Positions 30,626-59,412 of a DNA stretch of 64,000 nucleotides are shown one piece after another. The translations under genes and the position numbers were made by a program. Source of the DNA: Limimaricola soesokkakensis (GTDB taxonomy: Bacteria > Pseudomonadota > Alphaproteobacteria > Rhodobacterales > Rhodobacteraceae); NCBI RefSeq assembly GCF_900172345.1, contig NZ_FWFY01000002.1:372001-436000 (forward strand), given 5' to 3'. The first letter of the stretch is position 1. Every line of letters begins with the position of its first letter. The notes under the pieces were generated by a model. It searched no databases and was not told where the DNA came from. It saw only the letters and a list, made by a program, of their open reading frames with translations.

Positions 30626-31312
30626 ATGCAGAACAGCCGTCCCGCCACACACCGCCTCTATCATTTCCCGCTCTCGCCTTTCTCGCGGAAGGTGAGGCTC
30701 TCGCTCGCCGAGAAACGCATCGAGGTGGAGCTGGTCGAAGAGCGCTATTGGGAGCAGGATCCCGAATTCATGCGCCGGAACCCGGCCGGCAAGGTGCCCG
30801 TGCTCAAGCTCGGCAACCGCATGATGTCGGAAAGCACCGCGATCTGCGAGTATCTCGAAGAGGTGCAGCCCGATCCACCGCTGTTGCCGCAATCGGTGGA
30901 TGCCCGCTACGAGGTGCGCCGGCTCGTTGGCTGGTTCGACGACAAGTTCAACCGCGAGGTGACCTCGAAGCTGCTCGGAGAGCGGGTTTTCAAGAAAGTT
31001 ATGGGCGGTGGCTATCCCGACAGCACCAACGTCAAGGCCGGGGCTCGGGCGATCAAGTATCACCTCGATTACATGGCCTGGCTTCTGGACCAGCGCCGCT
31101 GGCTCGCGGGCAACGAGCTGTCGCTCGCCGACTTCGCCGCCGCTGCGCACCTGTCCTGCCTCGACTACATCTCGGACGTGGACTGGAACCGCTCCGAGAC
31201 GGTCAAGGACTGGTACGCCAAGATCAAGTCGCGCCCCGCCTTCCGCTCGCTTCTGGCCGATCAGCTGCCGGGCTTTCCGCAGCCCGCGCATTACGCCGAT
31301 CTCGATTTCTGA
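30626..31312 (+). CDS. Glutathione S-transferase family protein
   Basis: Protein of 228 aa with a thioredoxin-like N-terminal domain (LYHFPLSPFSRKVRLSLAEK, then NPAGKVPVLKL and the ESTAICEYLEE glutathione site) and a helical C-terminal domain with LAGNELSLADFAAAAHLSCLDY. The Ser in PFSRK is the likely thiol-activating residue. It precedes queG by 46 bases. Substrate unknown. Confidence 0.9.
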   Translation: MQNSRPATHRLYHFPLSPFSRKVRLSLAEKRIEVELVEERYWEQDPEFMRRNPAGKVPVLKLGNRMMSESTAICEYLEEVQPDPPLLPQSVDARYEVRRLVGWFDDKFNREVTSKLLGERVFKKVMGGGYPDSTNVKAGARAIKYHLDYMAWLLDQRRWLAGNELSLADFAAAAHLSCLDYISDVDWNRSETVKDWYAKIKSRPAFRSLLADQLPGFPQPAHYADLDF

Positions 31313-31341
31313 GACCGCGCGCTTGGGGCCGGCGGCCCGAA

Positions 31342-31358
31342 TGCGTATTTGGTGAAAG

Positions 31359-31370
<12 letters not shown>
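31342..31370 (+). repeat. Dispersed repeat, copy A (carries the queG start codon)
   Basis: Matches the pattern TGCGTATTT-N4-AAAGATGAAC followed by a G-rich end. Its internal ATG is the start codon of queG. Other copies are at 37845, 44361, 58030 and 58106. Seen directly by comparing the five sites. Confidence 0.85.
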
Positions 31371-32423
<1,053 letters not shown>

Positions 32424-32444
32424 CAATCAGGAGAGGAGATCGAG

Positions 32445-33647
32445 ATGAGAACGCTATCCCCGATCGTGCTTGCGGCGCTGCTGCCCGGCGCGGCCTTCGC
32501 CGAACAGCATACCGAGGCCAAGCCGGTCGATCGTGGCCCGCCCAACGCCGAATACGAGCCCGCCTTTCCCGAGCAGGAGATGGCGCCGCAGCTGGAGGCG
32601 ACAGAGGTCGCCATCGAGACTTTCGCCGAGAACCTCGAACGCCCCTGGGGCATCGCGCCGCTGCCCGATGGCAGCTATCTCGTCACCGAGCGGCCGGGCC
32701 GGCTGCGCCACGTTTCCGCCCGAGGCGAGGTGCACGAGCCGATCTCCGGCCTGCCCGAGATCGACGCGCGCGAGCAGGGCGGCCTGTTGGACGTGACGCT
32801 CTCTCCCGATTTCGGCTCCGACCGCATGGTCTATTTCACCTATGCCAAGCCCGTCGATGGCGGCGTCGCCACGGCAGCCGCGCGTGGCATGCTGACCGAG
32901 GACATGACCGCGCTGGAGAATGTCGAGGACATCTTCGTGCAGGGCCCACCTTCGGACGCACCGATGCATTACGGCTCGCGCATCACCTTCGACGGCGAAG
33001 GCCGTGTCTTCATCACCACCGGCGAGCATTTCACCGACGAGTACCGCAAGATGGCGCAGGAACTCGACAACACCTATGGCAAGGTGGTGCGGCTCAATCC
33101 CGACGGCTCGGTGCCCGAGGACAACCCCTTCGTGGGGCAGGACGGCGAGGACGCGATCTGGTCCTATGGCCACCGCAACATCCAAGGCGCGGCGATCCAG
33201 CCCGCGACCGGCGACTACTGGACCATCGAGCATGGTCCGGCGGGTGGCGACGAGTTGAACCGCCCCGAGGCCGGCAAAAACTACGGCTGGCCCGAGGTGA
33301 GCTACGGCATCCGCTATGACGGTGCCCCGATCGGCACAGGTGAGCCACGCGCCGAGGGTATGGAGGAGCCAGTCTATTTCTGGGATCCGGTGATCGCGCC
33401 GGGGGGCATGGCCTTCTACGAGGGCGACGCCTTCGAGGGCTGGGAGGGCGACCTGATCATCGCTTCGCTCTCACCCGGCGAAGTCGTGCGGCTCGACTTC
33501 GACGAGGAGGGGCTCGTGGTCGGCGAGGAGGCGCTGGCTGGCGGCAATGGCCGGGTGCGCGATGTCGAAATCGCCGAGGACGGCACGGTGCTGTTCCTGA
33601 TCGACAGCGAGGCGGGCGCGATCCTGCGCATGTCGCCGAAATCCTGA
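32445..33647 (+). CDS. PQQ-dependent sugar dehydrogenase family protein (YliI/GSDH type)
   Basis: Secreted six-bladed beta-propeller of 400 aa with a signal peptide (ending GAAFA near residue 19). The family pattern is clear: LERPWGIAPLPDGSYLVTERPGRL, EQGGLLDVTLSPDF, MHYGSRITFDGEGRVFITTGEH with the catalytic-type His, and SYGHRNIQGAAIQPATG. WTIEHGPAGGDELN and NYGWPEVSYG complete it. It should oxidise an aldose with PQQ in the periplasm. No PQQ synthesis genes are in the window. It follows queG by 21 bases. Confidence 0.9.
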   Translation: MRTLSPIVLAALLPGAAFAEQHTEAKPVDRGPPNAEYEPAFPEQEMAPQLEATEVAIETFAENLERPWGIAPLPDGSYLVTERPGRLRHVSARGEVHEPISGLPEIDAREQGGLLDVTLSPDFGSDRMVYFTYAKPVDGGVATAAARGMLTEDMTALENVEDIFVQGPPSDAPMHYGSRITFDGEGRVFITTGEHFTDEYRKMAQELDNTYGKVVRLNPDGSVPEDNPFVGQDGEDAIWSYGHRNIQGAAIQPATGDYWTIEHGPAGGDELNRPEAGKNYGWPEVSYGIRYDGAPIGTGEPRAEGMEEPVYFWDPVIAPGGMAFYEGDAFEGWEGDLIIASLSPGEVVRLDFDEEGLVVGEEALAGGNGRVRDVEIAEDGTVLFLIDSEAGAILRMSPKS

Positions 33648-33775
33648 CGCGCGGCCCGATCCCCGATCTGCGGCGGCAAATGGCCCTTGCCGGGGGCCCG
33701 ATCGAAAGATGCAGACCGAATCGCGCCGATCGGTTAGGTTGCAGACCCGCGATATCCCCAAGGGAGGACATATCG

Positions 33776-33961
33776 ATGACCAAGCACGTGATCGACAAGC
33801 CCAAGGACCGCTCCGATATCAAAGCCCGCGAATACATGCGGCTCGAGCGCGAGGAGGGCCCGCACCGCGCGGTACGACGGCTCCATGCCCGCAGCCTCGG
33901 CGCCCGTGGTGCCACCCGGCTGCGTCAGTTCCTGCGCATCGAGCGCGGTCACGAAGCCTGA
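33776..33961 (+). CDS. Small basic protein, function unknown
   Basis: A 61-aa protein preceded by a strong AGGGAGGA ribosome site 7 bases before the ATG. It is rich in arginine (13 of 61) and lysine with scattered acidic residues, has no cysteine and no hydrophobic stretch, and ends in LRQFLRIERGHEA. The composition would suit binding to nucleic acid or an acidic protein. It has its own 128-base upstream region after the dehydrogenase. I recognise no family. Confidence 0.6.
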   Translation: MTKHVIDKPKDRSDIKAREYMRLEREEGPHRAVRRLHARSLGARGATRLRQFLRIERGHEA

Positions 33962-34085
33962 TGACGACCGGCCGGGGGAGTAGACCCCCTCGGTGTCATG
34001 AGAAATCCGGCCGGTAGCGCCAAGCCGCTGCCGGCCGCTTGCTCTTGTCGCGCGCGGGGCTAGGGTCGGGGCGAAAGGATCCCTC

Positions 34086-35069
34086 ATGCCACGCCCCGAA
34101 ACGCCCGCCATCTCCACGGCGCCCGCCGCGCCGCGACCGGCCCCGGTCCAGCAGCCGATGCGCGGCATCCTGTTCAAGACCGCCTCGGTCTGCGTCTTCG
34201 TCGCCATGGCCGCGATCATCAAGGCGACCTCGAACGACGTGCCGCCGGGCGAGGCGGTGTTCTTCCGCTCCTTCTTCGCGCTTCCCGTGATCATCGTCTG
34301 GCTGTTGTGGCGCGGCGAGTTGCGCCATGGGCTCGAGACCCCCAACCCGATGGGCCATCTGTGGCGCGGCGTCGTCGGCACCGCCGCGATGGGGCTGGGC
34401 TTCACCGCGCTGGGGCTGCTGCCCTTTCCCGAGGTTACGGCGATCGGCTACGCGGCGCCGCTGATGGTGGTGATCCTCGCCGCGATGTTTCTGGGCGAGG
34501 AAGTGCGGCTGTTCCGTCTCTCGGCGGTGGGGGCGGGACTCGCTGGGGTGCTGATCGTGATGTCGCCCCGGCTCTCGGTCACCTCGGACCCGCTCAGCAT
34601 GGCCGAGACGCTGGGCGCGGTGGTGGCGCTGGGCGGCGCGCTCTGCGCGGCGCTGGCGCAGGTCTTCGTGCGCAAGCTCACCCGGACCGAGGGCACGGCG
34701 GCGATCGTGTTCTGGTTCTCGACCACGGCGAGCCTTCTGGCGCTTCTGACCCTTCCCTTCGGCTGGGTACTGCCCGGGGCGGGCACCTTCGGGCTGCTGA
34801 TCCTGGCCGGACTGCTGGGCGGGGTGGGGCAGATCCTGCTCACCTCCAGCTACCGCTACGCCGACGCCTCGCTCATCGCGCCGTTCGAATACGCCTCGAT
34901 GCTGCTGGCGCTGGGCGTGGGCTATTTCCTGTTCGACGAGGTGCCGACCTGGACGATGATGCTGGGCGCGGCGATCATCGTCGCGGCGGGCATCGCCATC
35001 ATCTGGCGCGAGCGCAAGCTGGGGCTGGAGCGTGGTCGCGGTCGCCGCGCGATGAGCCCGAACGGCTAG
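34086..35069 (+). CDS. DMT-family transporter (EamA domains)
   Basis: Membrane protein of 327 aa with about ten helices arranged as two EamA repeats (first repeat from FKTASVCVFVAMAAII, second from ETLGAVVALGGALCAALAQVF). It resembles the RhaT/YdcZ-type metabolite exporters common in roseobacters. The N-terminal 24 residues are Pro/Ala-rich; an in-frame ATG at residue 25 (34158) could be the true start. The substrate cannot be told from sequence. Confidence 0.85.
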   Translation: MPRPETPAISTAPAAPRPAPVQQPMRGILFKTASVCVFVAMAAIIKATSNDVPPGEAVFFRSFFALPVIIVWLLWRGELRHGLETPNPMGHLWRGVVGTAAMGLGFTALGLLPFPEVTAIGYAAPLMVVILAAMFLGEEVRLFRLSAVGAGLAGVLIVMSPRLSVTSDPLSMAETLGAVVALGGALCAALAQVFVRKLTRTEGTAAIVFWFSTTASLLALLTLPFGWVLPGAGTFGLLILAGLLGGVGQILLTSSYRYADASLIAPFEYASMLLALGVGYFLFDEVPTWTMMLGAAIIVAAGIAIIWRERKLGLERGRGRRAMSPNG

Positions 35070-35078
35070 GGTGGGATC

Positions 35079-35537
35079 ATGGCGCCACATGAAACAGTGG
35101 GCACGGAGTGGATCGCGGGTGCGCTCGGATTGGCCGCCCTGCTGGCGCTGATGAACCTTGCAGGCTTCGCCGCCATGGCACAGGACAAGCGGCGCGCCGA
35201 ACGCGGGCTGTGGCGCTGGCCCGAACGGCGGCTGCTGCGGATCGCCTTCTGGGGAGGCGGTCTGGGCACCGTGCTGGCGCAGCGCCACCTGCGCCACAAG
35301 ACGCGCAAGCAGCCCTTCGCGCGGCATTTGAAGATGATCGTTTGGACGCAGGCGGTGCTGGTACTGGCGCTTACCCTCGCACTGGCAAGTCAGGCGCATC
35401 TGCGCCTGCAGGCCAAGCAGGCGCTGGGTGCCGTCGCCATGGCGGTGGCGGGCGTCGCCGAAGCCTGGCCCGTGGCGGAGCCGGCCGTGCCCGAACCCGC
35501 GCCGGGCAATGCGGTGAAGATCAACCGCGGCCTGTGA
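35079..35537 (+). CDS. DUF1294 family membrane protein
   Basis: Protein of 152 aa matching the DUF1294 pattern: MAQDKRRAERGLWRWPERRLLRIAFWGGGLGT followed by the RHKTRKQPF box near residue 70. Two hydrophobic segments flank this core (IAGALGLAALLALMNLAGF and AVLVLALTLALASQA). The C-terminal 40 residues are an Ala/Pro-rich extension. It starts 9 bases after the DMT transporter. Function of the family is unknown to me. Confidence 0.8.
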   Translation: MAPHETVGTEWIAGALGLAALLALMNLAGFAAMAQDKRRAERGLWRWPERRLLRIAFWGGGLGTVLAQRHLRHKTRKQPFARHLKMIVWTQAVLVLALTLALASQAHLRLQAKQALGAVAMAVAGVAEAWPVAEPAVPEPAPGNAVKINRGL

Positions 35538-35548
35538 GGGCAACGCAA

Positions 35549-35576
35549 AGGGGCGGCACCTTGCGGCACCGCCCCT
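35549..35576. terminator. Bidirectional terminator between DUF1294 gene and ilvE
   Basis: AGGGGCGG and CCGCCCCT flank a 12-nt internal part that can also fold. It lies 11 bases after the DUF1294 stop and 23 bases past the ilvE stop. Convergent genes on both sides support a shared terminator. Confidence 0.65.
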
Positions 35577-35599
35577 CTATGTCACGGCATGCAGCCGGT

Positions 35600-36469
35600 T
35601 CAGGCGCGGACGAGCTTCTCGTAGCTCTCGGCGACGTCGCGGGTCAGCGCGCCGACCTCGAAATTGTAGTCGCCGATCTGCCCCACCGGGGTGACCTCGG
35701 CCGCGGTTCCGGTGAGCCAGCACTGCTCGAAGCCCTCGAGCTCCTCGGGCATGATGTGCCGCTCATGCACGGTGATGCCCTTCTCCTTCAGCATCGCGAT
35801 CACGGTCTGACGGGTGATGCCGTTCAGGAAGCAGTCGGCCAGCGGCGTGTGGACCTCGCCATCCTTCACGAAGAACATGTTGGCGCCCGTGGCCTCGGCT
35901 ACGTAGCCGCGATAGTCGAACATCAGCGCGTCCGAGCAGCCCTTGGCCTCGGCCGCATGCTTGGACATGGTGCAAATCATGTAGAGACCGGCTGCCTTGG
36001 CCTGGCTCGGCGCGGTTTCGGGGCTCGGGCGCTTCCACTTGGCGATGTCGAGCTTAGCGCCCTTCATCTTGGCGTCGCCGTAATAGCTGCCCCATTCCCA
36101 AGCCGCGATCGCCATGCGGACCGGGTTGCGCAAGCTCGCCACGCCCATGTCGGGACCGGCGCCGCGCCAGGCCAGCGCCCGCACATAGGCGTTGGACCAG
36201 CCATTGGCCTCGAGCACCGCATATTTCGCCGCTTCGATTTCCTCGACCGAATAGGGGATCTCGAAATCCAGAAGCTCGGCCGATTTGCGCAGCCGCTGCG
36301 AATGCTCGACCCCCTTGAAGATCTTGCCGTCATAGCAGCGCTCGCCCTCGAACACCGAAGAGGCGTAGTGCAGCGCGTGGGTCAGGATGTGCACATTCGC
36401 GTCGCGCCATTCCACAAGCTGGCCGTCGAGCCAGATCTTCCCGTCGCGATCGTCGTAGCCGCCCGCCAT
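35600..36469 (-). CDS. ilvE: Branched-chain amino acid aminotransferase
   Basis: PLP-dependent class IV aminotransferase of 289 aa for the last step of Ile, Leu and Val synthesis. It has HALHYASSVFEGERCYDG near the N-terminus and the class IV signature EATGANMFFVKDGEVHTP, then LNGITRQTVI and LTGTAAEVTPVGQIG. The start was set at MAGGYDDRDGKIW, with GGGAGG 6 bases upstream. It is divergent from petP, a common neighbour in this family. Confidence 0.95.
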   Translation of the reverse strand: MAGGYDDRDGKIWLDGQLVEWRDANVHILTHALHYASSVFEGERCYDGKIFKGVEHSQRLRKSAELLDFEIPYSVEEIEAAKYAVLEANGWSNAYVRALAWRGAGPDMGVASLRNPVRMAIAAWEWGSYYGDAKMKGAKLDIAKWKRPSPETAPSQAKAAGLYMICTMSKHAAEAKGCSDALMFDYRGYVAEATGANMFFVKDGEVHTPLADCFLNGITRQTVIAMLKEKGITVHERHIMPEELEGFEQCWLTGTAAEVTPVGQIGDYNFEVGALTRDVAESYEKLVRA

Positions 36470-36625
36470 GGCGTGCCTCCCTGTCAAGATGTCGCGCGCG
36501 GATTCGGTCACCCGGGACCGAAAATTGCGCCCTATGGGGCAGATCGCTACCGCTTCGCCCTTGGAATGTCAACAAGGCTGACGTATTGTGACCCGAAGCC
36601 GAACGACCGAAGGGGACGAGACCGC

Positions 36626-37135
36626 ATGGCCGAGGCACCGGCGCCGCAGGGGGGATCGAGCCTTCTCTTCCTGACCGACGAACAGCTCAGGAAGGGCATC
36701 GAGGCGATGTTCTTCGCCTATCGCGGCTTCACCGCCGATCCCGACCGCATCCTCGAGGGGCGGGAGATGGGCCGCGCCCACCACCGGGCGATCCATTTCA
36801 TCCATCGCTCTCCCGGCACCACCGTGTCGAACCTGATGGCGCTTCTGGGCGTCACCAAGCAGTCGCTGAACCGGGTGCTGCGGGCGCTGATCGCGGCGGG
36901 TCTGGTCGAGGCGCGAGTCGGGCGGCGCGACCGGCGCGAAAGGCATCTCTACCTGACGCGCGAAGGCGCGGCACTGGAGCGCGAGCTTTCGGATGCCCAG
37001 CGCGAGCGGATGCGCGCCGCCTATCGCACCGCCGGCCCCGTGGCGGTGGCGGGCTTCCGGCAGGTGCTCGAGGCGATGATGGACGAGGAAAGCCGGCGCC
37101 AATACGAGGCGCTGGCGGGAAGGGGTGGCCAATGA
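36626..37135 (+). CDS. petP: MarR-family regulator PetP
   Basis: Winged-helix protein of 169 aa with the MarR core: TVSNLMALLGVTKQSLNRVLRAL as recognition region near residue 75 and a wing with VGRRDRRERHLYLT. In Rhodobacter capsulatus the pair petP-petR lies upstream of petABC. Here the same order is kept, with the petR start overlapping the petP stop by 4 bases, but petABC is about 16 kb away. Name given on family and gene order. Confidence 0.82.
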   Translation: MAEAPAPQGGSSLLFLTDEQLRKGIEAMFFAYRGFTADPDRILEGREMGRAHHRAIHFIHRSPGTTVSNLMALLGVTKQSLNRVLRALIAAGLVEARVGRRDRRERHLYLTREGAALERELSDAQRERMRAAYRTAGPVAVAGFRQVLEAMMDEESRRQYEALAGRGGQ

Positions 37136-37833
37136 GCACCGAACTCGCGCATCTCCTGGTGGTCGATGACGACGCGCGGCTGCGCGCGTTGTTGCAGAAG
37201 TTCCTTGCCCGGCATGGCTACCTCGTCACCGGCGCCCGCGATGCGGGCCATGCCCGTCGCCTGCTCACCGGGCTCGATTTCGACCTGATCGTGCTCGACG
37301 TGATGATGCCCGGCGAGGACGGGATCTCGCTCTGCCGGGCGCTGCGCGAGGAGTTGCCGGTGCCGATCCTGCTGCTGACCGCGCGTGGCGATACCGAGGA
37401 CCGTATCATCGGGCTCGAGGCCGGGGCGGACGACTATCTCGCCAAGCCATTCGATCCCAAGGAGCTGCTCTTGCGGATCAACGCCGTGCTGCGCCGCCAG
37501 CCCGCGCCCGACCCGGTGCCGGAGCGGCCCGCGACGCTGGAGCTGGGCCCGGTGCGCTACGACGTGGCGCGCGGCGAAATGTGGGAGGGCGAAAGCCGGA
37601 TCCGGCTCACCGCCACCGAGTCGCAACTCATGCGGATCTTCGCCGCGCGCCCGGGCGAAGCGGTGAGCCGGGCGCGGCTGGTCGAGGAGCTGGGCCGTGG
37701 CGGCGGCCAGAGCCAGGAGCGCGCGGTCGACGTGCAGATCACCCGGCTGCGGCGCAAGTTCGAGGCCGATCCGCGCCAGCCGCGCTACCTGCAGACGGTG
37801 CGCGGCGAGGGATACATGCTGGCGCCCGACTGA
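37132..37833 (+). CDS. petR: OmpR-type response regulator PetR
   Basis: Two-domain response regulator of 233 aa. The receiver domain has the acidic pocket VVDDD, phospho-acceptor Asp56 in IVLDVMMPG, Thr83 and Lys105 in AKPFDP. The winged-helix DNA-binding domain (RLTATESQLMRIF to YLQTVRGEGYML) follows. No histidine kinase is adjacent; its MarR-like neighbour petP is co-transcribed. R. capsulatus PetR is reported to be needed for growth; the same role here is inferred. Confidence 0.87.
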   Translation: MSTELAHLLVVDDDARLRALLQKFLARHGYLVTGARDAGHARRLLTGLDFDLIVLDVMMPGEDGISLCRALREELPVPILLLTARGDTEDRIIGLEAGADDYLAKPFDPKELLLRINAVLRRQPAPDPVPERPATLELGPVRYDVARGEMWEGESRIRLTATESQLMRIFAARPGEAVSRARLVEELGRGGGQSQERAVDVQITRLRRKFEADPRQPRYLQTVRGEGYMLAPD

Positions 37834-37844
37834 AGCGGCAGGAT

Positions 37845-37874
37845 TTGCGTATTTTGGGAAAGATGAACCAAGGG
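37845..37874 (+). repeat. Dispersed repeat, copy B
   Basis: TGCGTATTT followed by TGGG and AAAGATGAACC, then AAGGGG, 11 bases after the petR stop. The internal ATG would open a 40-residue frame starting MNQGA, which ends inside the start region of the next gene and is probably not a gene. Confidence 0.85.
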
Positions 37875-37978
37875 GCGTGCGGCTCCTTTGATCTCGTCCC
37901 TGAGCCACACTCTGCCGCACGCGCGACGGTGATCGCGATGCGCTTGCGCCCGTCCGTGATCTGCGCTTGCTTGCGGGG

Positions 37979-38905
37979 ATGACCACCGCGCTGATCACCC
38001 ATCCCGATGGATTCAACCATTCCACGCCGCCCGGCCACCCCGAGCAGGTGGCGCGGCTCGACGCGGTGCTGGGCGCCTTGGAGGGCGTGAATCTGCTGCG
38101 GCTCAAGGCGCCGATGGCGGCCGAGGCCGATCTTCTGAGGGTGCATCCGAAAGCTTATCTCGACGGGCTGCATGAGGACGTGCCCGAGCATGGCCGCCGT
38201 CAGCTCGACGCCGATACCTGGCTGTCGCCCGGCAGCCTCGGCGCGGCGTGGCGCGCCGCCGGTGCGGCGATCCGCGCCGTGGATGCGGTGCTGGGGGGCG
38301 AGGCGGCCAATGCCTTTTGCGCGATGCGCCCGCCCGGCCATCACGCCGAAACCGAGACCGCGATGGGGTTCTGCCTGTTGGGCAACGTCGCGGCGGCGGC
38401 GAAACACGCACTCGACCATCACGGGCTGAGCCGCGTGGCGATCATCGATTTCGACGTGCATCACGGCAATGGCACACAAGACCTCGTGGAGGACGACCCG
38501 CGCATCCTGTTCTGCTCGACCCACGAGATGCCGCTCTACCCGGGTACCGGCGATCCATCGGACACCGGGCCGCATGACACGGTGGTCAACGTGGCGCTGC
38601 GCGCGGGCTGCGACGGGACGGGGATGCTGGCGGCGCTGGAGGAGAAGGTGTTCCCGCGCGTCGTGGCGCACCGGCCCGGGCTGATCCTCGTCTCGGCCGG
38701 GTTCGACGCGCATCGCGACGATCCGCTGGCCGGGCTGATGCTCGAGGCCGAGGATTTCGCGAAGGTCACGGCGCGGATCTGCGATCTGGCGGCGGATCTG
38801 TGCTCGGGGCGCGTGGTCTCCGCGCTCGAAGGCGGTTATGACCTCGAGGCGCTGGGCGCCTGTGCGGCCGCCCATGTCAGGATATTGGAGGAACGTGGGC
38901 GATGA
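37979..38905 (+). CDS. Histone deacetylase family protein (acetylpolyamine/acetoin-utilisation type)
   Basis: Zn-dependent deacetylase of 308 aa from the arginase/HDAC superfamily. Active-site segments are RPPGHHAETETAMGFCLLGN (paired His), VAIIDFDVHHGNGTQDL (Asp and His zinc ligands) and VSAGFDAHRDDPL (third ligand), with ALEGGYDLEAL at the end. Bacterial members act on small acetylated amines or proteins. The ATG at 37979 was preferred over a TTG four codons earlier. Its end overlaps xseB by 4 bases. Confidence 0.9.
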   Translation: MTTALITHPDGFNHSTPPGHPEQVARLDAVLGALEGVNLLRLKAPMAAEADLLRVHPKAYLDGLHEDVPEHGRRQLDADTWLSPGSLGAAWRAAGAAIRAVDAVLGGEAANAFCAMRPPGHHAETETAMGFCLLGNVAAAAKHALDHHGLSRVAIIDFDVHHGNGTQDLVEDDPRILFCSTHEMPLYPGTGDPSDTGPHDTVVNVALRAGCDGTGMLAALEEKVFPRVVAHRPGLILVSAGFDAHRDDPLAGLMLEAEDFAKVTARICDLAADLCSGRVVSALEGGYDLEALGACAAAHVRILEERGR

Positions 38906-39144
38906 CCGACGCGACACCCGTGAACGAAATGAGCTTCGAGGCAGCGATCCGCGAGCTGGAGCAGGTGGTGGGCAAGCTGGAGCGCGGCGATGTCGCGCTC
39001 GACGAATCCATCGCGCTCTACCAGCGCGGCGCGGAGCTGAAGGCCCGCTGCGAGAAGCAGCTCGCCGAGGCCGAGGAGAAGGTCGCGAAGATTACCCAAG
39101 GTCCCGACGGCCAGGCGCAGGGCACCGCGCCGCTCGATGGCTGA
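38902..39144 (+). CDS. xseB: Exodeoxyribonuclease VII small subunit
   Basis: An 80-aa helical protein that joins XseA in exonuclease VII. The family pattern FEAAIRELEQVVGKLERGDVALDESIALYQRG starts at residue 12. It overlaps the deacetylase stop by 4 bases and the ispA start by 8 bases. The large subunit xseA is not in this window; xseB-ispA-dxs is a widespread arrangement. Confidence 0.94.
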   Translation: MTDATPVNEMSFEAAIRELEQVVGKLERGDVALDESIALYQRGAELKARCEKQLAEAEEKVAKITQGPDGQAQGTAPLDG

Positions 39145-40003
39145 GGGCTTTGCCGCCGCGCTGGCGCAGGCCGGGCGCGAGACGCAAGGACTGCTCCGCG
39201 AAAGGCTTGCAGGGCACGACCTGCCCGTGGCCCGCGCGATGGAGCACGCGGTCGCGGGCGGCAAGGGGCTGCGCGGGTTTCTCGTGCTCGAAGGCGCGCG
39301 GCTGCACGGGGTGGCGCGCGAGGCGGCGTTGCTGCCTGCCGCCGGGATCGAGGCGCTGCACGCCTACAGCCTCGTGCATGACGATCTGCCCGCGATGGAT
39401 GACGACGATCTGCGCCGGGGACGGCCCACCGTGCATGTCGCTTGGGACGAGGCGACCGCGATCCTCGCGGGCGACGCGCTGCAGACGCTGGCCTTCGAGC
39501 TTTGCGCCGACCCGGATGTCGGGCCGCATCGCGCCGATCTGTGCCTGTCGCTGGCGCGGGCTGCCGGCATCGCCGGCATGGTCGGCGGTCAGGCCCGCGA
39601 CATCATGGCGGAGACCGCGGCCATGCCGCTCGACATCGACCAGATCACCGTGCTGCAGCAGGGCAAGACCGGGGCGCTGATCCGCTGGTCGGCCGAGGCC
39701 GGCGCGGTGATGGCCGGCGCCGACCCGCGCCCGCTGGGGCGCTACGCGGCGGCGCTGGGCCTTGCCTTCCAGATCGCCGACGACATTCTCGACGTGGAGG
39801 GGGATGCCGCGAAGCTGGGCAAGGCCGTGCGCAAGGATGCCGGCGCCGGCAAGGCGACCTTCGTCTCGCTGCTCGGGCTCGACGCGGCGAAGACCCGCGC
39901 CGCCGAGCTCGTTGAGGGGGCCTGCGATGCCCTGTCGCCCTATGGCGCCGAGGCGGCAACCTTGCGCGACGCCGCCCGCTTCGTTATCGCGCGCGACAAC
40001 TGA
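39137..40003 (+). CDS. ispA: Polyprenyl (farnesyl) diphosphate synthase
   Basis: Class I trans-prenyltransferase of 288 aa making farnesyl (or geranyl) diphosphate. The first aspartate-rich motif is [17 protein letters not shown], and the second is [23 protein letters not shown] and [10 protein letters not shown] are other conserved segments. The gene is tightly coupled to xseB and is followed by dxs after 16 bases, so it sits in the isoprenoid supply operon. Confidence 0.94.
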
Positions 40004-40019
40004 TCAGAGGGGGCCCGCC

Positions 40020-41960
40020 ATGACCCAGACGCCGAACCGCCCCGTCACGCCGATCCTCGACCGGGTGCAGATCCCCGCCGACATGAAGCGGCTGAGCGAC
40101 GCCGAACTGCGGCGGCTCGCCGACGAGCTGCGCGCCGAGACGATCTCGGCGGTGAGCGAGACCGGCGGCCATCTCGGCGCGGGCCTCGGCGTGGTCGAAA
40201 TGACCGTGGCGCTGCACGCGGTGTTCGACACGCCGCGTGATCGGCTGATCTGGGACGTCAGCCACCAGTCCTACCCGCATAAGATCCTCACCGGCCGGCG
40301 CGACCGAATCCGCACCCTGCGCCAGAAGGACGGGCTGTCGGGTTTCACCAAGCGCTCCGAGAGCCCCTATGACCCGTTCGGCGCGGCGCATAGCTCGACC
40401 TCGATCTCGGCGGCGCTCGGGCTGGCGGCGGCGCGCGACCTGGGCGGGCGCGGGCTCGAAGGGGAGAGCCTTGGCGACTGCATCGCGGTGATCGGCGACG
40501 GCGCGATGAGCGCGGGCATGGCCTATGAGGCGATGAACAACGCGGGCCATCTGGGCAAGCGGCTGATCGTCATCCTCAACGACAACGAGATGTCGATCGC
40601 GCCCCCGGTCGGCGCGATGTCCTCCTACCTGTCGCGGCTCTATGCCGGCGCGCCGTTTCAGGAGTTCAAGGCGCTTGCCAAGGGCGCGGTGAGCTTCCTG
40701 CCGCCGCCGTTCCAGGAGGGGGCGCGGCGCGCCAAGGACGTGTTCAAGCACATGACCGTCGGCGGCACGCTGTTCGAGGAGCTGGGCTTTTCCTATATCG
40801 GCCCGGTCGACGGGCACGACATGGAGCAGCTCCTGTCGGTGCTGCGCACGGTCAAGGCGCGCGCCGACGGACCGGTGCTGATCCACGCGATCACCAAGAA
40901 GGGCAAGGGCTATGCCCCGGCCGAAGCGGCCTCGGACAGGGGCCACGCGACCGCGAAGTTCGACGTGGTGTCGGGCGCGCAGGCCAAGGCCAAAAGCAAC
41001 GCGCCATCCTATACCTCGGTGTTCTCGGACACGCTCGTCAAGCTGGCGGAGAACGACCAGAAGATCGTCGCGGTCACCGCGGCGATGCCTGACGGCACCG
41101 GGCTGGCGCGGTTCATGGACCGTTATGCCAGCCGCTGCTTCGACGTCGGCATCGCCGAGCAGCACGCGGTGACCTTTGCGGCAGGCCTCGCGGCGGGCGG
41201 GATGAAACCGTTCTGCGCGATCTACTCAACCTTCCTGCAGCGTGGCTACGACCAGGTGGTGCATGACGTCGCTATCCAGCGCCTGCCGGTGCGCTTCGCG
41301 ATCGACCGCGCCGGGCTCGTCGGCGCCGATGGCGCCACCCATGCCGGCAGCTTCGACGTGGGCTTCATGGCCAATCTGCCGGGCATGGTGGTGATGGCCG
41401 CCGCCGATGAGGCCGAGCTGGTACGCATGGTGGTGACGGCGGCGGCGCATGACGACGGGCCGATCGCCTTCCGATTTCCGCGCGGCGAGGGGGTCGGCGT
41501 CGAGATCCCGGCCGAGGCGGAGCCATTGGAGATCGGCCGGGGCCGGATCGTGCAGGAGGGCAGTCGCGTCGCGCTCCTATCCTTCGGTACGCGGTTGTCG
41601 GAGACGGTGAAGGCCGCCGAGGCGCTGTCGGCACGCGGCATCACGCCCACCATCGCCGATGCGCGCTTTGCCAAGCCGCTGGACCGGGAGATGATCCTGA
41701 CGCTGGCGCGAGAGCACGAGGCGCTGATCACCATCGAGGAAGGGGCCGTCGGCGGTTTCGGCAGTCACGTGGCGCAGCTTCTTTCCGAGGAGGGCGTGTT
41801 CGATGCCGGGCTGAAGTTCCGCTCAATGGTTCTGCCCGACATCTTCATTGACCAAGCCAGCCCCTCGGACATGTACGAGACCGCCGGTCTTTCGGCCAAG
41901 CATATCGAGGAAAAGGTGCTGTCGGTGCTGGGCGTCGAGGTGATCGGCAAGAGGGCCTGA
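40020..41960 (+). CDS. dxs: 1-deoxy-D-xylulose-5-phosphate synthase
   Basis: Thiamine diphosphate enzyme, 646 aa, first step of the MEP pathway. It has [15 protein letters not shown], the ThDP-binding [18 protein letters not shown] ... LNDNEMSI and the transketolase centre [17 protein letters not shown]. The C-terminal domain has [15 protein letters not shown]. The ATG at 40020 is preceded by GAGGGGG. Its thiamine cofactor links to the thiBPQ uptake genes later in the window. Confidence 0.97.
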
Positions 41961-41967
41961 GGGGCGC

Positions 41968-42000
41968 CGCCGCGCGGGGGCATCGAGCCCCCTTGCGGCG
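41968..42000. terminator. Terminator between dxs and the epimerase gene
   Basis: CGCCGC and GGGGGC arms pair with GCCCCC and GCGGCG around an ATCGA loop, with a two-base bulge on each side. It lies 7 bases after the dxs stop and just before the convergent gene's stop. Confidence 0.7.
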
Positions 42001-42012
42001 GGCTGCTGCGGA

Positions 42013-42870
42013 TCAGCTGCCGGTTTCGGTGCGCAGCAGCGCGGCCAGCCCCGAGCGGTAATCGGGGTGGATCAGTTCCACCCCCAGCTCGTTCTTGATC
42101 CGATCGTTCCGGACCTTCTTCGATTCGGCGTAGAAGCTGCGCGCCATCGGCGTCATCTCGGCCCGTTCGAACGGTGCCTCGGGCGGCACTGGCAGGCCGA
42201 GCAGTTCGGCGGCATGGGCGATGACGTCCTGCGGCGGCGCCGGATCGTCGTCGCACAGGTTGTAGATCGCGCCGGGGTTCGGGCGATCGATGCTGGCCTT
42301 CAGCACCTGCGCGATGTCGTCGACATGGATGCGGCTGAACACCTGCCCCTGCTTGACGATGCGCCGGGCCGTGCCCTGCCGCACCTTTTCGAACGGGCCG
42401 CGACCGGGCCCGTAGATGCCGGCGAGACGGAAGATGTGCAGCGGCAGGCCGGGAACGGCGCGCCAGGCCGCCTCGGCCCCGACCCTTGCCCGGCCGCGCG
42501 CCGTCGCGGGGCGCAGATCGCTGTCCTCATCGACCCAATCGCCGTCGCGGTCGCCATAGACGCCGGTGGTCGAAAGATAGCCCACCCATGCGAAGCGGCT
42601 CGCGCGCGCGGCGATGGCGTCGCGCCATTCGCGCAGCACCGGGTCGCCATCGGCGTCGGGGGCCGCGGAGACGAGAAGATGCGTGGCCGCGTCGAGCGCC
42701 TCAGTGAGGTCGGCGCCGGGCCAGATCGCGGGCTCGACGCCCTCGGCGCGCAAGTCTTCGGCCTTCTCGGCCGAGCGGGTGGTACCGATGATCTGCCATG
42801 CGTCGCGCGGCAACAGGCGGGCGAGGGCGCGGGCCGAATAGCCGTGGCCGAAGGAAAGGAGCGTCTTCAT
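42013..42870 (-). CDS. NAD-dependent epimerase/dehydratase (YeeZ-like SDR)
   Basis: Atypical SDR of 285 aa with N-terminal LLSFGHGYSARALARLL as nucleotide site, LSTTGVYGDRDGDWVDE containing the SDR tyrosine region, and IHVDDIAQVLKASIDRP. The layout matches YeeZ-type proteins of unknown substrate. The start at 42870 (MKTLLSFGHG) follows AAAGGAG; a TTG two codons upstream is not needed. It converges on dxs. Confidence 0.82.
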   Translation of the reverse strand: MKTLLSFGHGYSARALARLLPRDAWQIIGTTRSAEKAEDLRAEGVEPAIWPGADLTEALDAATHLLVSAAPDADGDPVLREWRDAIAARASRFAWVGYLSTTGVYGDRDGDWVDEDSDLRPATARGRARVGAEAAWRAVPGLPLHIFRLAGIYGPGRGPFEKVRQGTARRIVKQGQVFSRIHVDDIAQVLKASIDRPNPGAIYNLCDDDPAPPQDVIAHAAELLGLPVPPEAPFERAEMTPMARSFYAESKKVRNDRIKNELGVELIHPDYRSGLAALLRTETGS

Positions 42871-42894
42871 GGGCAATATGTGCCCGATGCGGCA

Positions 42895-43305
42895 CTAGCG
42901 GTCCAGCAGCGCGAGGGTCCGGTCGTCGGGCCCGTCATAGAAGGCCTCCAGAATCTCTCCGAAGACCGGGTCGGCGCCGGGCTGCGCCGCGAAGAGCGTG
43001 GCCGAACTCCTGAGCTTCAACGCGTCGATGCCGCCGAGGATGTCCTCGGGCGCGCGGCCGCGATGCGCCAGCATGGCGCGGGAGATCTCGACCAACCGGG
43101 GGCCGAGAGTCGGGTGGGCGAGATAGGCGCGCGCTTCTGCCGCATCCGCGATCCCGTAATGCTGCGCCATCTGCGAATGGCCGAGACCGCGTAGCTGCGG
43201 CCAGATGTACCACATCCAGTGGCTGCGCTTCTGCCCAGCCTCGATCTCGGACAGGGCGGTGGCGAAGCTGTCCCGCTGCGCCTCGACAAAGCGATCGAGG
43301 CTCAT
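42895..43305 (-). CDS. DUF1810 family protein
   Basis: Protein of 136 aa matching DUF1810: SLDRFVEAQRDSFATALSEIEAGQKRSHWMWYIWPQLRGLG at the N-terminus, then HPTLGPRLVEI and FGEILEAFYDGPDD. Function unknown. Its ATG overlaps the topoisomerase IB stop (ATGA), so the two are probably made together. Confidence 0.88.
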   Translation of the reverse strand: MSLDRFVEAQRDSFATALSEIEAGQKRSHWMWYIWPQLRGLGHSQMAQHYGIADAAEARAYLAHPTLGPRLVEISRAMLAHRGRAPEDILGGIDALKLRSSATLFAAQPGADPVFGEILEAFYDGPDDRTLALLDR

Positions 43306-44282
43306 GACAGCAGCCTCAGTAGGGCCCGTTCGGCCTGTCGCAGCCCGTCGGTCTCGGGGAGGCCCTGGAGCAGCGCGGCGCGGTCCTCGGGCGTGGCCTC
43401 GTGCAGCGCGATGACCTTTGGGTGGATATAGCTGTTGCGCGCGATGGTCGGGGTGTTGTGCAGCCGCTCGGCGGCGGCCTCGCTCATGCTCTTGATGGAG
43501 AGCGTCTCGTCCGAGAGCGCGCAGGCCAGAGCCGCCTCCGAGCCTGCCCATGTGCGGAAGGTCTTGGCGGTGACATGATCGGAGCCGGTGATCTCGGCCA
43601 GCCGGTCGTTCACCTGCCCCGAGGAGACGCCATGCGGCGCGCCGTCCTCGTCGATCCAGCCGATGAGCTGTTTCCCCGGCAGGTCGTGCAGCTGGCCCAG
43701 CACCTTCATAAGCGACTTGTCCTTGAGCTTGCGGTCGACTTTCTTGTTGCCCTTGGCCATGTAGCGCAGCCGCATCTGGCCGCCATCGAGCCGGATGTGC
43801 CGGCCCGTCAGGGTGGTGGCGCCATAGGTGCGGTTCTCGGCCGCGTAGGCCGGGTTGCCCACGCGGATCGAGACCCGGTCGATCAGTGCCAAGACCGCGG
43901 CGATGGCGAAATCGAGCTCGCCCGCCTCGCCGGAGAGGTCGCGGCGGATGCGGCGCCGGATCGCGGGCAGGGCCGCCCCGAACTCGTACAGGTGGTCGAA
44001 CTTGTGCGACTCGCGCCAGGCACGCCATTCGGGGTGGTAGCGGTATTGCTTGCGGGTGCGGGCATCGAGGCCGGTGGCCTGAAGGTGGCCATGCGGCTTG
44101 GGACAGATCCAGACCTTCTCGTAGGCGGGCGGTACCGCCAGCGCCTCGATCCGCCGGCGCTCGGCTCCGCGCTCGATGGTGGTGCCGTCGGGCGCGGTAT
44201 AGGAGAAACCGCGCCCGCAGCGGCGGCGCGCGATTCCGGGCTCTGAATCGGGATAGTAGACGAGCTTGGCGGGGGGCGGCAT
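43302..44282 (-). CDS. Bacterial (poxvirus-type) DNA topoisomerase IB
   Basis: Type IB topoisomerase of 326 aa that relaxes supercoils through a 3'-phosphotyrosyl link. Conserved segments include SIRVGNPAYAAENRTYGATTL with the catalytic Arg region, GNKKVDRKL, and the C-terminal ARNSYIHPKVI with the Tyr nucleophile. VTAKTFRTWAGS also matches. The start at 44282 (MPPPAKLVYYP) follows GAGGAG. The downstream DUF1810 gene overlaps it by 4 bases. Confidence 0.93.
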   Translation of the reverse strand: MPPPAKLVYYPDSEPGIARRRCGRGFSYTAPDGTTIERGAERRRIEALAVPPAYEKVWICPKPHGHLQATGLDARTRKQYRYHPEWRAWRESHKFDHLYEFGAALPAIRRRIRRDLSGEAGELDFAIAAVLALIDRVSIRVGNPAYAAENRTYGATTLTGRHIRLDGGQMRLRYMAKGNKKVDRKLKDKSLMKVLGQLHDLPGKQLIGWIDEDGAPHGVSSGQVNDRLAEITGSDHVTAKTFRTWAGSEAALACALSDETLSIKSMSEAAAERLHNTPTIARNSYIHPKVIALHEATPEDRAALLQGLPETDGLRQAERALLRLLS

Positions 44283-44360
44283 CGGCGGATCTCCTCGGCC
44301 GTGCAACGCCGGGCGCGCGGCGCCCGTTCCCGGCGCGACAATCACGCTCGCGCGCGTCCC

Positions 44361-44386
44361 CCGTTCATCTTTCCTCAAATACGCAT
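44361..44386 (-). repeat. Dispersed repeat, copy C
   Basis: On the minus strand it reads TGCGTATTT-GAGG-AAAGATGAAC, upstream of topoisomerase IB. This is the closest match to copy D over the 23-base core; the G-rich tail differs. Confidence 0.85.
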
Positions 44387-44479
44387 GCGCGGCGGTGCCG
44401 CAGGGCGCTTGCCCGGGGCCTCTCGCGCCCAGCATCCGGCGGGGTTGCGGCGGCTCGCCGGTTGGTATGAAATCCGAAG

Positions 44480-46279
44480 ATGGAACATGCCATCAGCTCC
44501 TGGGCCGAAGTTGCCCCCCGTCTCGTCGCCGTGGCCGCAGGCCGCGAGGCCGCCGATCTCGTGATCCGCGGCGGTCGTCTCGTCAACGTGCAGAGCCGCG
44601 AGATCCTCGATGGCTGGGAGGTGGCGGTGGCCGCGGGCCGCTTCGCCTATGTCGGCCCCGATGCGAGCCATTGCATCGGCGAGGGCACCGAGGTGGTGGA
44701 TGCCGCCGACCGTTACCTGATCCCCGGGCTGATCGACGCGCATATGCATGTCGAGAGCGGCATGCTGACCCCGGCGGAATTCGCCGCCGCGGTGATCCCG
44801 CACGGCACCACGACGATGTTCACCGATCCGCATGAGATCGCCAATGTGCTGGGGCTTGAGGGCGTCAGGATGATGCATGACGAGGCGTTGATGCAGCCCG
44901 TCAACATGTTCACCCAGATGCCCAGCTGCGCGCCCTCGGCGCCGGGGCTCGAGACCACCGGCCACGAGATATCCCCCGAGGACGTGGCCGAGGCGATGTC
45001 ATGGCCCGGCATCGTGGGCCTGGGCGAGATGATGAACTACCCGGGCGTGGTCGCGGGCGATCCGAAGATGCTGGCCGAGATCGCGGCCACCATGCGCGCG
45101 GGCAAGACCGTGGGCGGGCATTACGCGAGCCCCGACCGGGGCGTGCCGTTCCACGCCTATGTCGCGGGCGGCCCCGCCGACGATCACGAAGGCACGCGCG
45201 AGCAGGACGCGATCGACCGGGTCCGGCAGGGCATGCGCTCGATGCTGCGGCTGGGGAGCGCGTGGTACGACGTAGAGAGCCAGATCACCGCCGTCACCGA
45301 GCGCGGCCTCGATCCGCGCAATTTCGTGCTGTGCACCGATGACTGCCATTCCGGCACGCTGGTGAATGACGGCCACATGGACCGTGTGGTGCGCCACGCC
45401 ATCGAATGCGGCTGCGACCCGGTGGTGGCGCTGCAGATGGCGACGATCAACTCGGCTACGCATTTCGGCATGGAGCGCGAGCTGGGCAGCATCGCGCCGG
45501 GGCGGCGCGCCGACGTGATCCTGACCTCGGATCTCGCCACGCTGCCGATCGAGACCGTCTTCGCACGGGGCCAGCTGGTTGCCGAAAGCGGTGACTTGCG
45601 TGCCACATGCCCGCATTACGATTGGCCCGAAAGCGCACGGAACACCGTGCATCTGGGCCGGGAGCTGGTGGCGGATGATTTCAAGGTCGCGGCGCCCGAA
45701 GGGGCGGAGACGGTCCGTGCCAAGGTGATCGGCGTGGTCGAGAACCAAGCGCCGACCAAGGCGCTGGTGCGCGAGCTTCCCGTCGAGGGGGGCTGCGTGA
45801 TGCCCGAGGGTCCGGTGGCGCGGATCGCGCTGGTGGAGCGGCACCGTGGCACGGGGGGCGTGGTGAACGGCTTCGTCGAGGGCTTCGGCTACGAGGGTCG
45901 CATGGCGATCGCCTCAACCGTCGCGCATGACAGCCATCACATGATCGTCGTCGGCACCGATGCCGAGATGATGGCGGCCGCCGCGAACCGGCTCGGAGAG
46001 GTCGGCGGCGGCGTCACGGTCTGGCGCGACGGCGCCGAGCGGGCGCTGGTGCGGCTGCCGATCGCCGGGTTGATGTCGGATGCACCGGCACGTGACGTGG
46101 CAGCGGCCGCCGATGGCATGGTCGCGGCGATGCACGACGCTGGCTGCACGCTCAACAACGCCTACATGCAGCATTCGCTGCTCGCGCTCGTGGTGATCCC
46201 CGAGCTGCGCATATCGGATCTCGGGCTGGTGGACGTCACCCGGTTCGAGATCACGACACCATTCGAGGGACAGGACTGA
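44480..46279 (+). CDS. ade: Adenine deaminase
   Basis: Metal-dependent amidohydrolase of 599 aa converting adenine to hypoxanthine and ammonia. It has the amidohydrolase signature PGLIDAHMHVESGMLTP, HGTTTMFTDPHEIANV and FVLCTDDCHSGTL, plus the Ade C-terminal domain with TVAHDSHHMIVVGT and DAGCTLNNAYMQHSLLAL. Its stop is 5 bases from the amn start, so AMP nucleosidase and adenine deaminase form one two-step route. Confidence 0.95.
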   Translation: MEHAISSWAEVAPRLVAVAAGREAADLVIRGGRLVNVQSREILDGWEVAVAAGRFAYVGPDASHCIGEGTEVVDAADRYLIPGLIDAHMHVESGMLTPAEFAAAVIPHGTTTMFTDPHEIANVLGLEGVRMMHDEALMQPVNMFTQMPSCAPSAPGLETTGHEISPEDVAEAMSWPGIVGLGEMMNYPGVVAGDPKMLAEIAATMRAGKTVGGHYASPDRGVPFHAYVAGGPADDHEGTREQDAIDRVRQGMRSMLRLGSAWYDVESQITAVTERGLDPRNFVLCTDDCHSGTLVNDGHMDRVVRHAIECGCDPVVALQMATINSATHFGMERELGSIAPGRRADVILTSDLATLPIETVFARGQLVAESGDLRATCPHYDWPESARNTVHLGRELVADDFKVAAPEGAETVRAKVIGVVENQAPTKALVRELPVEGGCVMPEGPVARIALVERHRGTGGVVNGFVEGFGYEGRMAIASTVAHDSHHMIVVGTDAEMMAAAANRLGEVGGGVTVWRDGAERALVRLPIAGLMSDAPARDVAAAADGMVAAMHDAGCTLNNAYMQHSLLALVVIPELRISDLGLVDVTRFEITTPFEGQD

Positions 46280-48183: not shown

Positions 48184-48220
48184 TCGCTTCTCGCGCCCTC
48201 GCGGCGCGCTGCGGATCAGG

Positions 48221-48247
48221 AAAGGGTCGCCCTCGTGGCGGCCCTTT
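48221..48247 (+). terminator. Terminator after the HU gene
   Basis: AAAGGGTCGCC and GGCGGCCCTTT form an 11-bp stem (one G-U pair) with a CTCGT loop, 37 bases after the HU stop. A and T ends flank it. Confidence 0.75.
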
Positions 48248-58029: not shown

Positions 58030-58060
58030 CCCCTTGGTTCATCTTTCCTCAAATACGCAT
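58030..58060 (-). repeat. Dispersed repeat, copy D
   Basis: Minus-strand TGCGTATTT-GAGG-AAAGATGAACC followed by AAGGGG, 73 bases upstream of the GST start. It shares the MNQGA-coding end with copies A and B. It faces copy E in inverted orientation, 46 bases apart. Confidence 0.85.
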
Positions 58061-58105: not shown

Positions 58106-58133
58106 TGCGTATTTACGAGAAGACGAACCGGGG
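58106..58133 (+). repeat. Dispersed repeat, copy E (diverged)
   Basis: TGCGTATTT followed by ACGA and GAAGACGAACC, then GGGG. It has lost the internal ATG by an A-to-G-type change (GACGAAC), which marks it as the most diverged copy. It ends a few bases before the mtaB stop. Confidence 0.7.
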
Positions 58134-58140
58134 TCGCCGC

Positions 58141-59412
58141 TCAGGCGATGAGGCGGGTGCCGGAGACCCCGGTGATCGTGGCTTCGACGATGCGCCCTTC
58201 CGGCTGGTCACTAGCAAAATCCACCTCGGCAAAATGCTCGGTCCGCCCCATGTGCGGGCTTTCCATCAGCACGCGGTGGGTCCGCCCGACCTGCGCCGCC
58301 AGATGCGCCTGCGCCGCCAGATCGCCTGCGGCGCGCAGCCGTGCCGCGCGCGCCTTGATCGCCCGGCCATTCACCTGTGGCATCCGTGCCGCCGGGGTGC
58401 CCGGGCGGGGCGAATAGGGAAAGACGTGCAGCCAGGTCAGGTCGCACTCCTCGACCAGCTTCAGCGAGTTCTCGAACATCGCCTCGGTCTCGGTCGGAAA
58501 GCCCGCGATGATGTCGGCGCCGAAGGTCATGTCGGGCCGCAGCCGGCGCGCCTCTTCGGCAAAGCGGATCGCGTCGTCGCGCAGGTGGCGGCGCTTCATC
58601 CGCTTGAGGATCAGGTCGTCACCGTGCTGTAGCGACAGGTGTAGATGCGGCATCAGCCGCTTCTCGGTGGCGATCGCCTGCATCAGGTTCTCGTCGACCT
58701 CGATCGAATCGATCGAGGAAATGCGCAGCCGTTTCAGATCCGGCACCAGCTTGAGGATGCGCATCACCAGATCGCCCAGCTTCGGCTGCGCGGGCAGGTC
58801 AGCGCCCCAGGAGGTCAGGTCGACGCCGGTCAGCACCACCTCCTCATAGCCGCGATCCACCAGCCGCCTGATCTGCTCGACCACCACGCCCGCCGGCACC
58901 GAGCGCGAATTGCCCCGGCCAAAGGGAATGATGCAGAAGGTGCAGCGGTGATCGCAGCCGTTCTGGACCTGCACATAGGCGCGCGAACGGCTGCCGAAGC
59001 CGTCGATCAGGTGCCCAGCGGTCTCGGTCACGGACATGATGTCGTCGACCTGCACCGGCTCGGTCGCGCCGATCAGGTCGGGCGCCATGCCCTTCCAGGT
59101 TTCGGGCTGCATCTTCTCGGTGTTGCCGATGACTAGGTCGACCTCTTCCATGTCGGAAAAGCGCTTGGGATCGGTCTGCGCGGCGCAGCCGGTGACGATG
59201 ATCTTCGCCGTCGGGTTCTCGCGCCGCAGTCGGCGGATTTCCTGCCCCGCCTTGCGCACCGCCTCGGCGGTGACGGCGCAGGTGTTGATCACCACCGCAT
59301 CCTCGACCCCGGCGCGCGCGGCGAGATCCTTCATCGCCTCGGTCTCGTAGGCGTTGAGGCGGCAGCCCATGGTGGTGAAGATCGGTGCCTTGGAAGATTC
59401 GGGGCGGTCCAT
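58141..59412 (-). CDS. mtaB: tRNA t6A37 methylthiotransferase MtaB
   Basis: Radical-SAM enzyme of 423 aa that adds a methylthio group to t6A at tRNA position 37. The UPF0004 domain has GCRLNAYETEAM and three cysteines (INTCAVTAEAV, VTGCAAQ); the radical-SAM loop is CDHRCTFC in the segment NGCDHRCTFCIIPFGRG, and a TRAM-like end follows. Its ATG shares one base with the dapF stop. Confidence 0.95.
   Translation of the reverse strand: MDRPESSKAPIFTTMGCRLNAYETEAMKDLAARAGVEDAVVINTCAVTAEAVRKAGQEIRRLRRENPTAKIIVTGCAAQTDPKRFSDMEEVDLVIGNTEKMQPETWKGMAPDLIGATEPVQVDDIMSVTETAGHLIDGFGSRSRAYVQVQNGCDHRCTFCIIPFGRGNSRSVPAGVVVEQIRRLVDRGYEEVVLTGVDLTSWGADLPAQPKLGDLVMRILKLVPDLKRLRISSIDSIEVDENLMQAIATEKRLMPHLHLSLQHGDDLILKRMKRRHLRDDAIRFAEEARRLRPDMTFGADIIAGFPTETEAMFENSLKLVEECDLTWLHVFPYSPRPGTPAARMPQVNGRAIKARAARLRAAGDLAAQAHLAAQVGRTHRVLMESPHMGRTEHFAEVDFASDQPEGRIVEATITGVSGTRLIA

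Follow-up and report, generated by a model that had tools for sequence, protein, structure and literature searches.

The start codon of queG, a conserved tRNA-modification gene of Limimaricola soesokkakensis, lies within a short repeat that recurs in other intergenic regions nearby, which raises the question of what this repeat is and why a gene should begin on it. We followed the repeat through a window of 64 kb (the whole stretch of 64,000 nucleotides analysed here), the whole genome (G000), seven further Limimaricola species (G107, G198, G199, G200, G201, G202 and G203) and other genomes of the family. A reading made from the sequence of the window alone (hereafter the sequence-only reading) had recognised five copies. 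With small corrections of coordinates this is right: four copies match exactly and one carries 2 mismatches, and the five observed exceed what composition would yield, as 100 shuffles give an expectation of 0.00. Copies A (31342..31364) and B (37846..37868) lie on the plus strand, and copies C (44363..44385) and D (58037..58059) on the minus strand; all four are exact matches in the spelling that we call the A dialect. Copy A comprises the 22-bp site plus a C, with GGT as its spacer. Copy E (58106..58128, plus strand) is the one with 2 mismatches and is decayed; its counterpart is intact in G202 and further decayed in G203.

The stop codon of a response regulator gene lies 12 nt upstream of copy B, and at this locus G198, G202 and G200 have an inward-pointing pair (><) instead. 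Copy C is flanked by divergent genes at 43302-44282 (minus strand) and 44480-46279 (plus strand), and its position is common to G203, G202 and G198 and also to G200, where it is written in the B dialect. Copies D and E form an outward-pointing pair (<>) and the corresponding pair of G200 points inward (><); the 3' end of an MtaB-type methylthiotransferase gene (58141..59412, minus strand; TIGR01579, 449 bits) faces both copies. Translated from the repeat's ATG, copies A, B and D give MNQGA, as had been read from the sequence; copy C reads MNGGR, and copy E has ACG where the others have ATG. A long frame, of 354 codons, runs on from this ATG in copy A only, compared with 39 codons in B, 8 in C and 29 in D, also as first described.

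Elsewhere in the window we noted a match to the Ruegeria cis2 sRNA in Rfam (RF02645; 4687-4835, 78 bits) and a TPP riboswitch (RF00059; 50045-50143) preceding the gene at 50172. At 48183-48390, six of the eight species have a transporter-like open frame, which by eye adds roughly 820 nt; at the same place G000 and G203 have just a spacer, about 207 nt long. The difference represents a lineage-specific loss or gain.

The gene that begins on copy A is queG, for tRNA epoxyqueuosine reductase (31359..32423, plus strand; TIGR00276, 441 bits), with the ATG of the copy at 31359 as its first codon. Upstream lies a gene for an FzlA-type, GST-like FtsZ-binding protein (30626..31312, plus strand; NF050814, 340 bits), whose stop codon is 29 nt ahead of the copy. 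Because an in-frame TGA is found two codons upstream of the ATG, and no other ATG, GTG or TTG occurs between this TGA and the conserved LKxR of queG, the reading frame argues that translation of queG very probably starts inside the repeat. Three further species with the A spelling (G203, G198 and G202) have the same layout. The proposal that the ATG of the repeat was captured as the queG start is thus upheld in four species, none of which offers an alternative start codon downstream ahead of LKxR. In G199 a degraded copy has ATG GTG at the same position, and in G200 the locus holds a pair of copies, with the likely queG starts lying behind the pair. In a comparison by eye of the gap between fzlA and queG across the family, in which four genomes gave no resolved result, a version of the site is present in G010, G005, G006 and G012 and perhaps, in degenerate form, in G007; G016 and G008 have a spacer without the site, and six others have hardly any spacer.

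In a genome-wide search of the kind that the sequence-only reading had proposed, here at up to three mismatches, we identified 53 copies (20 are exact, while one mismatch occurs in 23, two in 7 and three in 3); the reversed control pattern gave 0 matches in the same genome. The site is directional and two-part, 22 bp long, and reads TGCGTATTT-n3-GAAAGATGAA, with three nearly free letters in the middle; in the profile of the copies the flanks are likewise nearly free, save for G-richness following the site. The copies fall into 39 places, 25 of which hold a single site and 14 a pair. Mismatches per copy number 0.48 in singles, 0.43 in close pairs and 0.64 in other pairs (p 0.96); singles are as intact as paired copies, indicating that the single site is the unit. 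The inward-pointing (><) pairs tend to be spaced by gaps of 18-23 nt (7/10, 11/16 and 22/31 in three sets of such pairs), and apparent steps in the pair distances (about 21, 42 and 66) are suggestive only. Exact matches in named genomes comprise 91 stretches; among the 80 listed, 77 come from three Limimaricola, namely L. cinnabarinus XM1, L. litoreus and Limimaricola sp. G21655-S1. We rejected a chance origin on the grounds of the shuffles, the reversed controls and the background outside the family.

Two individual sites are worth recording. In a wide inverted pair (L022:1501-1694) the minus copy has the spacer TTA in G000, in G199 and G200 and at two named loci, a constancy that spacers elsewhere lack, and an overlapping function at this place is possible. 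Between genes that by eye resemble those for ATP synthase subunits (L043:1502), a B-like match with 3 mismatches, GAAGGGTGAA, was found; G199 and an L. litoreus locus contain the same word, and the match may be an old copy or a chance match.

Relative to genes called with a codon-usage model, as distinct from an annotation, 52/53 copies are intergenic or at most overlap the end of a gene, and by eye many of the neighbouring genes resemble housekeeping genes. With expectations set by intergenic length over 182 intergenic regions, convergent regions hold 12/38 clusters in G000 versus 3.4 expected and divergent regions 4/38 versus 12.5. The corresponding figures are 9/39 versus 3.5 and 3/39 versus 12.8 in G200, and 29/81 versus 7.2 and 9/81 versus 26.6 at the named Limimaricola loci, where the counts are not independent because the loci are common to these species. 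Clusters within genes or at ends are excluded from these counts (1/39 in G000, 3/42 in G200 and 5/86 in the named set). The contrasts are weaker when the expectation is set by the number of regions instead of their length (p 0.08 for divergent regions in G000, p 0.09 for convergent regions in G200). Between tandem genes, 12 singles are in sense and 5 in antisense orientation in G000, and 8 and 7, respectively, in G200; the sense singles of G000 lie 9-47 nt past the stop codon, save one of the 12 that overlaps it.

The sequence-only reading had proposed a test for positional bias near gene starts. Three of the 53 copies extend over the called start of the gene that follows: queG, an amidase-like gene (L026) and dut (L032), the last with a second ATG two codons downstream of the site-borne start. 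Convergent regions are favoured, divergent regions avoided and the copies lean to 3' ends. Because some genera spell the site without an ATG, for example CAAAGAAGAA, the capture of start codons is a side effect.

The spelling of the site differs between species of the genus. At up to one mismatch, TGCGTATTTNNNNAANGNTGAA is found in 49 copies in G000, 40 in G203, 90 in G202, 85 in G198 and 112 in G200, and in 17 copies in G201, 4 in G199 and 5 in G107. Copies listed for G202 read AAAGATGAA, one of them ending in T, and represent the A dialect. In G200, all 56 listed of the 112 copies read GAATGGTGAA, the B dialect. A third spelling, C, is that of G107, with 59 copies of GTATTTNNNGAGWRAAGTR / GAGWRAAGTR; G199 has 14 copies and the other six species have 0 or 1. 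Among 22 copies read from G107, GA replaces GC before GTATTT in 77%. As a separate observation, letters at two positions of the G107 site, five bases apart, match each other (G-G or A-A) in 36/39 exact copies, a covariation that, going by its letters, is that of two sub-dialects in one genome.

The main point of this analysis, and one beyond the reach of a reader who has the window alone, is that the spelling changes in concert at conserved loci. Nucleotide identity of the aligned stretches is about 87% between these clades and 96% between G000 and G203. Of 22 loci of G000 with a two-sided ortholog in G200, 21 have a copy in the latter species, and at 20 of these the B spelling is complete. 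This 21/22 is not an unbiased rate because most G200 stretches were chosen for holding a copy, and 17/39 clusters are without a two-sided counterpart among the G200 stretches compared. On contig C22, where all 12 clusters of G000 were compared, 11 have a G200 counterpart, including a copy within cobN that is in neither spelling. Copy number and orientation are identical at 13/22 of the G000-G200 loci, and the pair at 58 kb is turned.

For a comparison letter by letter we took the best site within 6 mismatches at each locus, used two-sided counterparts only and restricted the set to Limimaricola loci, dropping three outside loci and including the G203 stretches. This covered 30 of the 53 copies in G200, 35 in G198, 33 in G202 and 17 in G203, with one further G198 locus being siteless. 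Between G000 and G200 the dialect letters differ at 59/60 positions in 30 copies, the exception being the cobN copy, compared with 22/510 (4%) of the other core letters and 38/90 (42%) of the spacer letters. Within the A dialect the dialect letters differ from those of G000 at 1/66 positions in G202, 1/70 in G198 and 1/34 in G203; the spacer letters differ at 39/99, 43/105 and 7/51, respectively. At the level of sequence, these counts establish a concerted difference in spelling at largely shared loci. A locus at 53.4 kb has a site in the A dialect in G202, in B in G200 and G201 and in C in G107, and by eye shows remnants in G000 and G203. Several G203 copies are altered by point mutations, and the losses that we inspected look like decay by such mutations.

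A single copy lies inside a gene, in antisense orientation within cobN (TIGR02257, 1221 bits). The CobN proteins of G000, G203, G198, G202 and G200 (5/8 species) have ten extra in-frame residues at the site, which are absent in G201, G199 and G107. This distribution suggests that the site arrived once as a small insertion, and the cobN copy seems from the alignment to have added about 30 nt net. In G200 it reads GAGTGATGAA, which is neither A nor B. DNA trees group G200 with G202/G198 at 72-74 support and the protein tree disagrees; the backbone is weak, and the clade status of the five insertion-bearing species is left unsettled by the Limimaricola trees. With a past insertion visible in cobN, at one copy, the idea of a small mobile motif is partly right. 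The fuller proposal, a mobile or regulatory motif captured as a translation start, is supported in part: the repeat is real, the capture took place and one insertion is visible.

Beyond the genus, 97/198 genomes of the family match GTATTTNNNNAAAGATGAA at up to one mismatch and 53/198 have at least 10 copies, while the reversed control never exceeds 2. Spellings in the family vary by genome and include CAAAGAAGAA, GCAAGATGAA, CCAAGATGAA and AAGAGATGAA; genomes with a zero count may hold other spellings, because the GTATTTNNNNAAAGATGAA pattern is close to one dialect. Outside the family, none of 237 genomes (of 240 in the class) exceeds 5 matches, and controls reach up to 4. In several other genera a GC-rich stem, seen by eye, directly precedes the site (GTATTT). 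Two spellings coexist among the listed copies of G128, GAATGATGAA as singles and CAAAGAAGAA partly in inverted pairs. With a 64-base query, four Leisingera plasmids matched weakly (E 5); on two plasmids of that genus (NZ_CP035418.1 and NZ_CP038237.1) the matches to the site are exact over 19 bases, at E 5 each and weak singly. Among open PMC papers, a search by title and abstract returned neither this site nor a comparable repeat in the family.

Several known kinds of element share features with the site. We consider it unlikely that the copies are ancient insertions of a miniature mobile repeat of the REP/REPIN or MITE kind that a gene-conversion-like process keeps alike. Such a repeat would be extragenic and often arranged in inverted doublets at preferred distances (here 18-23 nt), with rare copies inside genes, and excerpts of PMC3733652 report REPs from convergent and tandem regions, as seen here; the 10-residue in-frame insertion in cobN (5/8 species) and the gain or loss of second copies at a locus between species fit as well. 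However, our unit is non-palindromic and hardly folds (0 to -0.4 kcal/mol across dialects A, B and C of Limimaricola), and the RAYT transposase family (PF01797) is absent in 7/8 species, being present in G203 only and not in G000. Spelling that differs in concert at shared loci and losses resembling point-mutation decay also speak against this account. In REPINs (PMC3116915 and PMC3733652) the doublet is the replicative unit and singlets decay, whereas singles here are as intact as doublets. Given the lack of appreciable folding, the intact singles and the missing RAYT in 7/8 species, we rejected a REP element as such. The poor folding also bears on the suggestion that the repeat is an RNA feature with a conserved role, which found no support: the spacers of paired copies match no more often than shuffled ones (5/21, 15/33 and 22/69 letters in the three sets, the named pairs including 4 clusters from three loci outside Limimaricola), which indicates that conservation does not act on hairpin pairing.

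The same spacers weigh against a transcription terminator or other RNA element of 3' ends, in which inverted pairs would form long hairpins and, elsewhere, a T-rich tract would follow a GC stem. Seven close pairs do fold at -27 to -39 kcal/mol, in G000 all but one of the 12 sense singles between tandem genes follow a stop codon at 9-47 nt, and the GC-rich stem ahead of GTATTT in several genera (by eye) recalls intrinsic terminators, as does the position behind stop codons. In contrast to such terminators, however, conservation here falls on letters that follow the T-rich part, and we know of nothing in termination that requires a species-wide spelling of letters there. A simple scan of 31000-46000 gives no terminator at the three copies it contains, at 53.4 kb a separate hairpin of terminator type is seen by eye next to the site, and no Rfam 15 family match overlaps a site in the subset of loci scanned. 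We therefore set aside an ordinary terminator, given the unmatched spacers of pairs and the separate hairpin at 53.4 kb, and regard a role of this general type as improbable. Alternatively, the sites might be signals for DNA uptake or transfer, homogenised like the DUS of Neisseriaceae because kin take up fragments of the right dialect. Excerpts of PMC3630211 describe short directional motifs that are uniform in a genome, differ between relatives and occasionally coexist as two dialects in one genome, much like the change at shared loci here and the two dialects of G128. The same source gives copy numbers of 943 to 5,918, whereas we count 53 copies here; the maximum is 112 within the genus, and no genome exceeds 130 at the stringency used. 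The present sites are also almost purely intergenic (52/53 copies outside genes), two-part and 22 bp long, and they diverge within one genus. For PilQ, the type IV pilus secretin, 0/8 species reach the cut-off; this absence is a weak argument against uptake because weaker matches occur in 8/8 and only 1/14 controls reach the cut-off. We rejected a DNA uptake sequence because the copies are too sparse, and judge an uptake or transfer signal in the wider sense to be very doubtful. For GTA packaging, no conserved packaging sequence was known, according to the relevant excerpt of PMC6854486.

Our favoured reading, which we hold tentatively and rate as somewhat less than probable, is that the repeats are directional two-part recognition sites for a putative sequence-specific factor of the family, with which they co-evolve. 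That loci are shared while their spelling is specific to the dialect hints at a factor that reads the sites. We infer a trans-acting putative protein that would read the site as double-stranded DNA. As the specificity of this factor drifts, the sites would be rewritten in place by selection, or because alleles that match survive preferentially after recombination has introduced them; superfluous copies would decay through point mutation. A site could arrive as a small insertion, as seen for the cobN copy only. The putative factor would probably act on DNA at gene ends. We speculate, giving this less weight, that once bound it may mark gene boundaries, for example by blocking read-through one way between convergent genes. 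Such a boundary role would make no sense for the cobN copy, which lies within a gene. Ter/Tus and Pol I terminators, on which a protein acts as a roadblock, likewise use an asymmetric site of about 20 bp with a direction-dependent position; here, in contrast, the protein is putative, the dispersed copies are many more and the spelling changes fast. Other observations count against the favoured reading as a whole. Information at the 19 core positions sums to about 35 bits, where about 17 bits are enough to locate 53 sites in 7.9 Mb of strand, and a content so far above the need for location is untypical of ordinary regulator sites. In addition, the arrangement is identical at only 13/22 loci, orientation is not strict, 4/38 clusters lie in divergent regions, two of the contrasts weaken when regions are counted by number, and the hairpin next to the site at 53.4 kb resembles an ordinary terminator.

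DNA uptake sequences are a known example of dispersed sites that change together in large numbers, driven there by a receptor. We give close to an even chance, falling slightly short of it, to a new recognition system of this family that re-spells tens of dispersed sites in place, with at least three dialects in the genus (A and B compared copy by copy), with RAYT missing from most species and no clear sign of the pilus behind the DUS dialects. The change observed here occurs within one genus, at low copy number and in a family for which we found no such system in print. The queG case shows in addition that a repeat can provide the start codon of a conserved tRNA-modification gene, and the A, B and C dialects at shared loci are ready-made material for tests. 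If the co-evolving factor is real, this would be an example from bacteria of a sequence-reading factor that co-evolves rapidly with a set of sites across the genome. The factor, if found, would reveal either a protein that marks gene boundaries or the genome, or a path by which members of an abundant marine family exchange genetic material.
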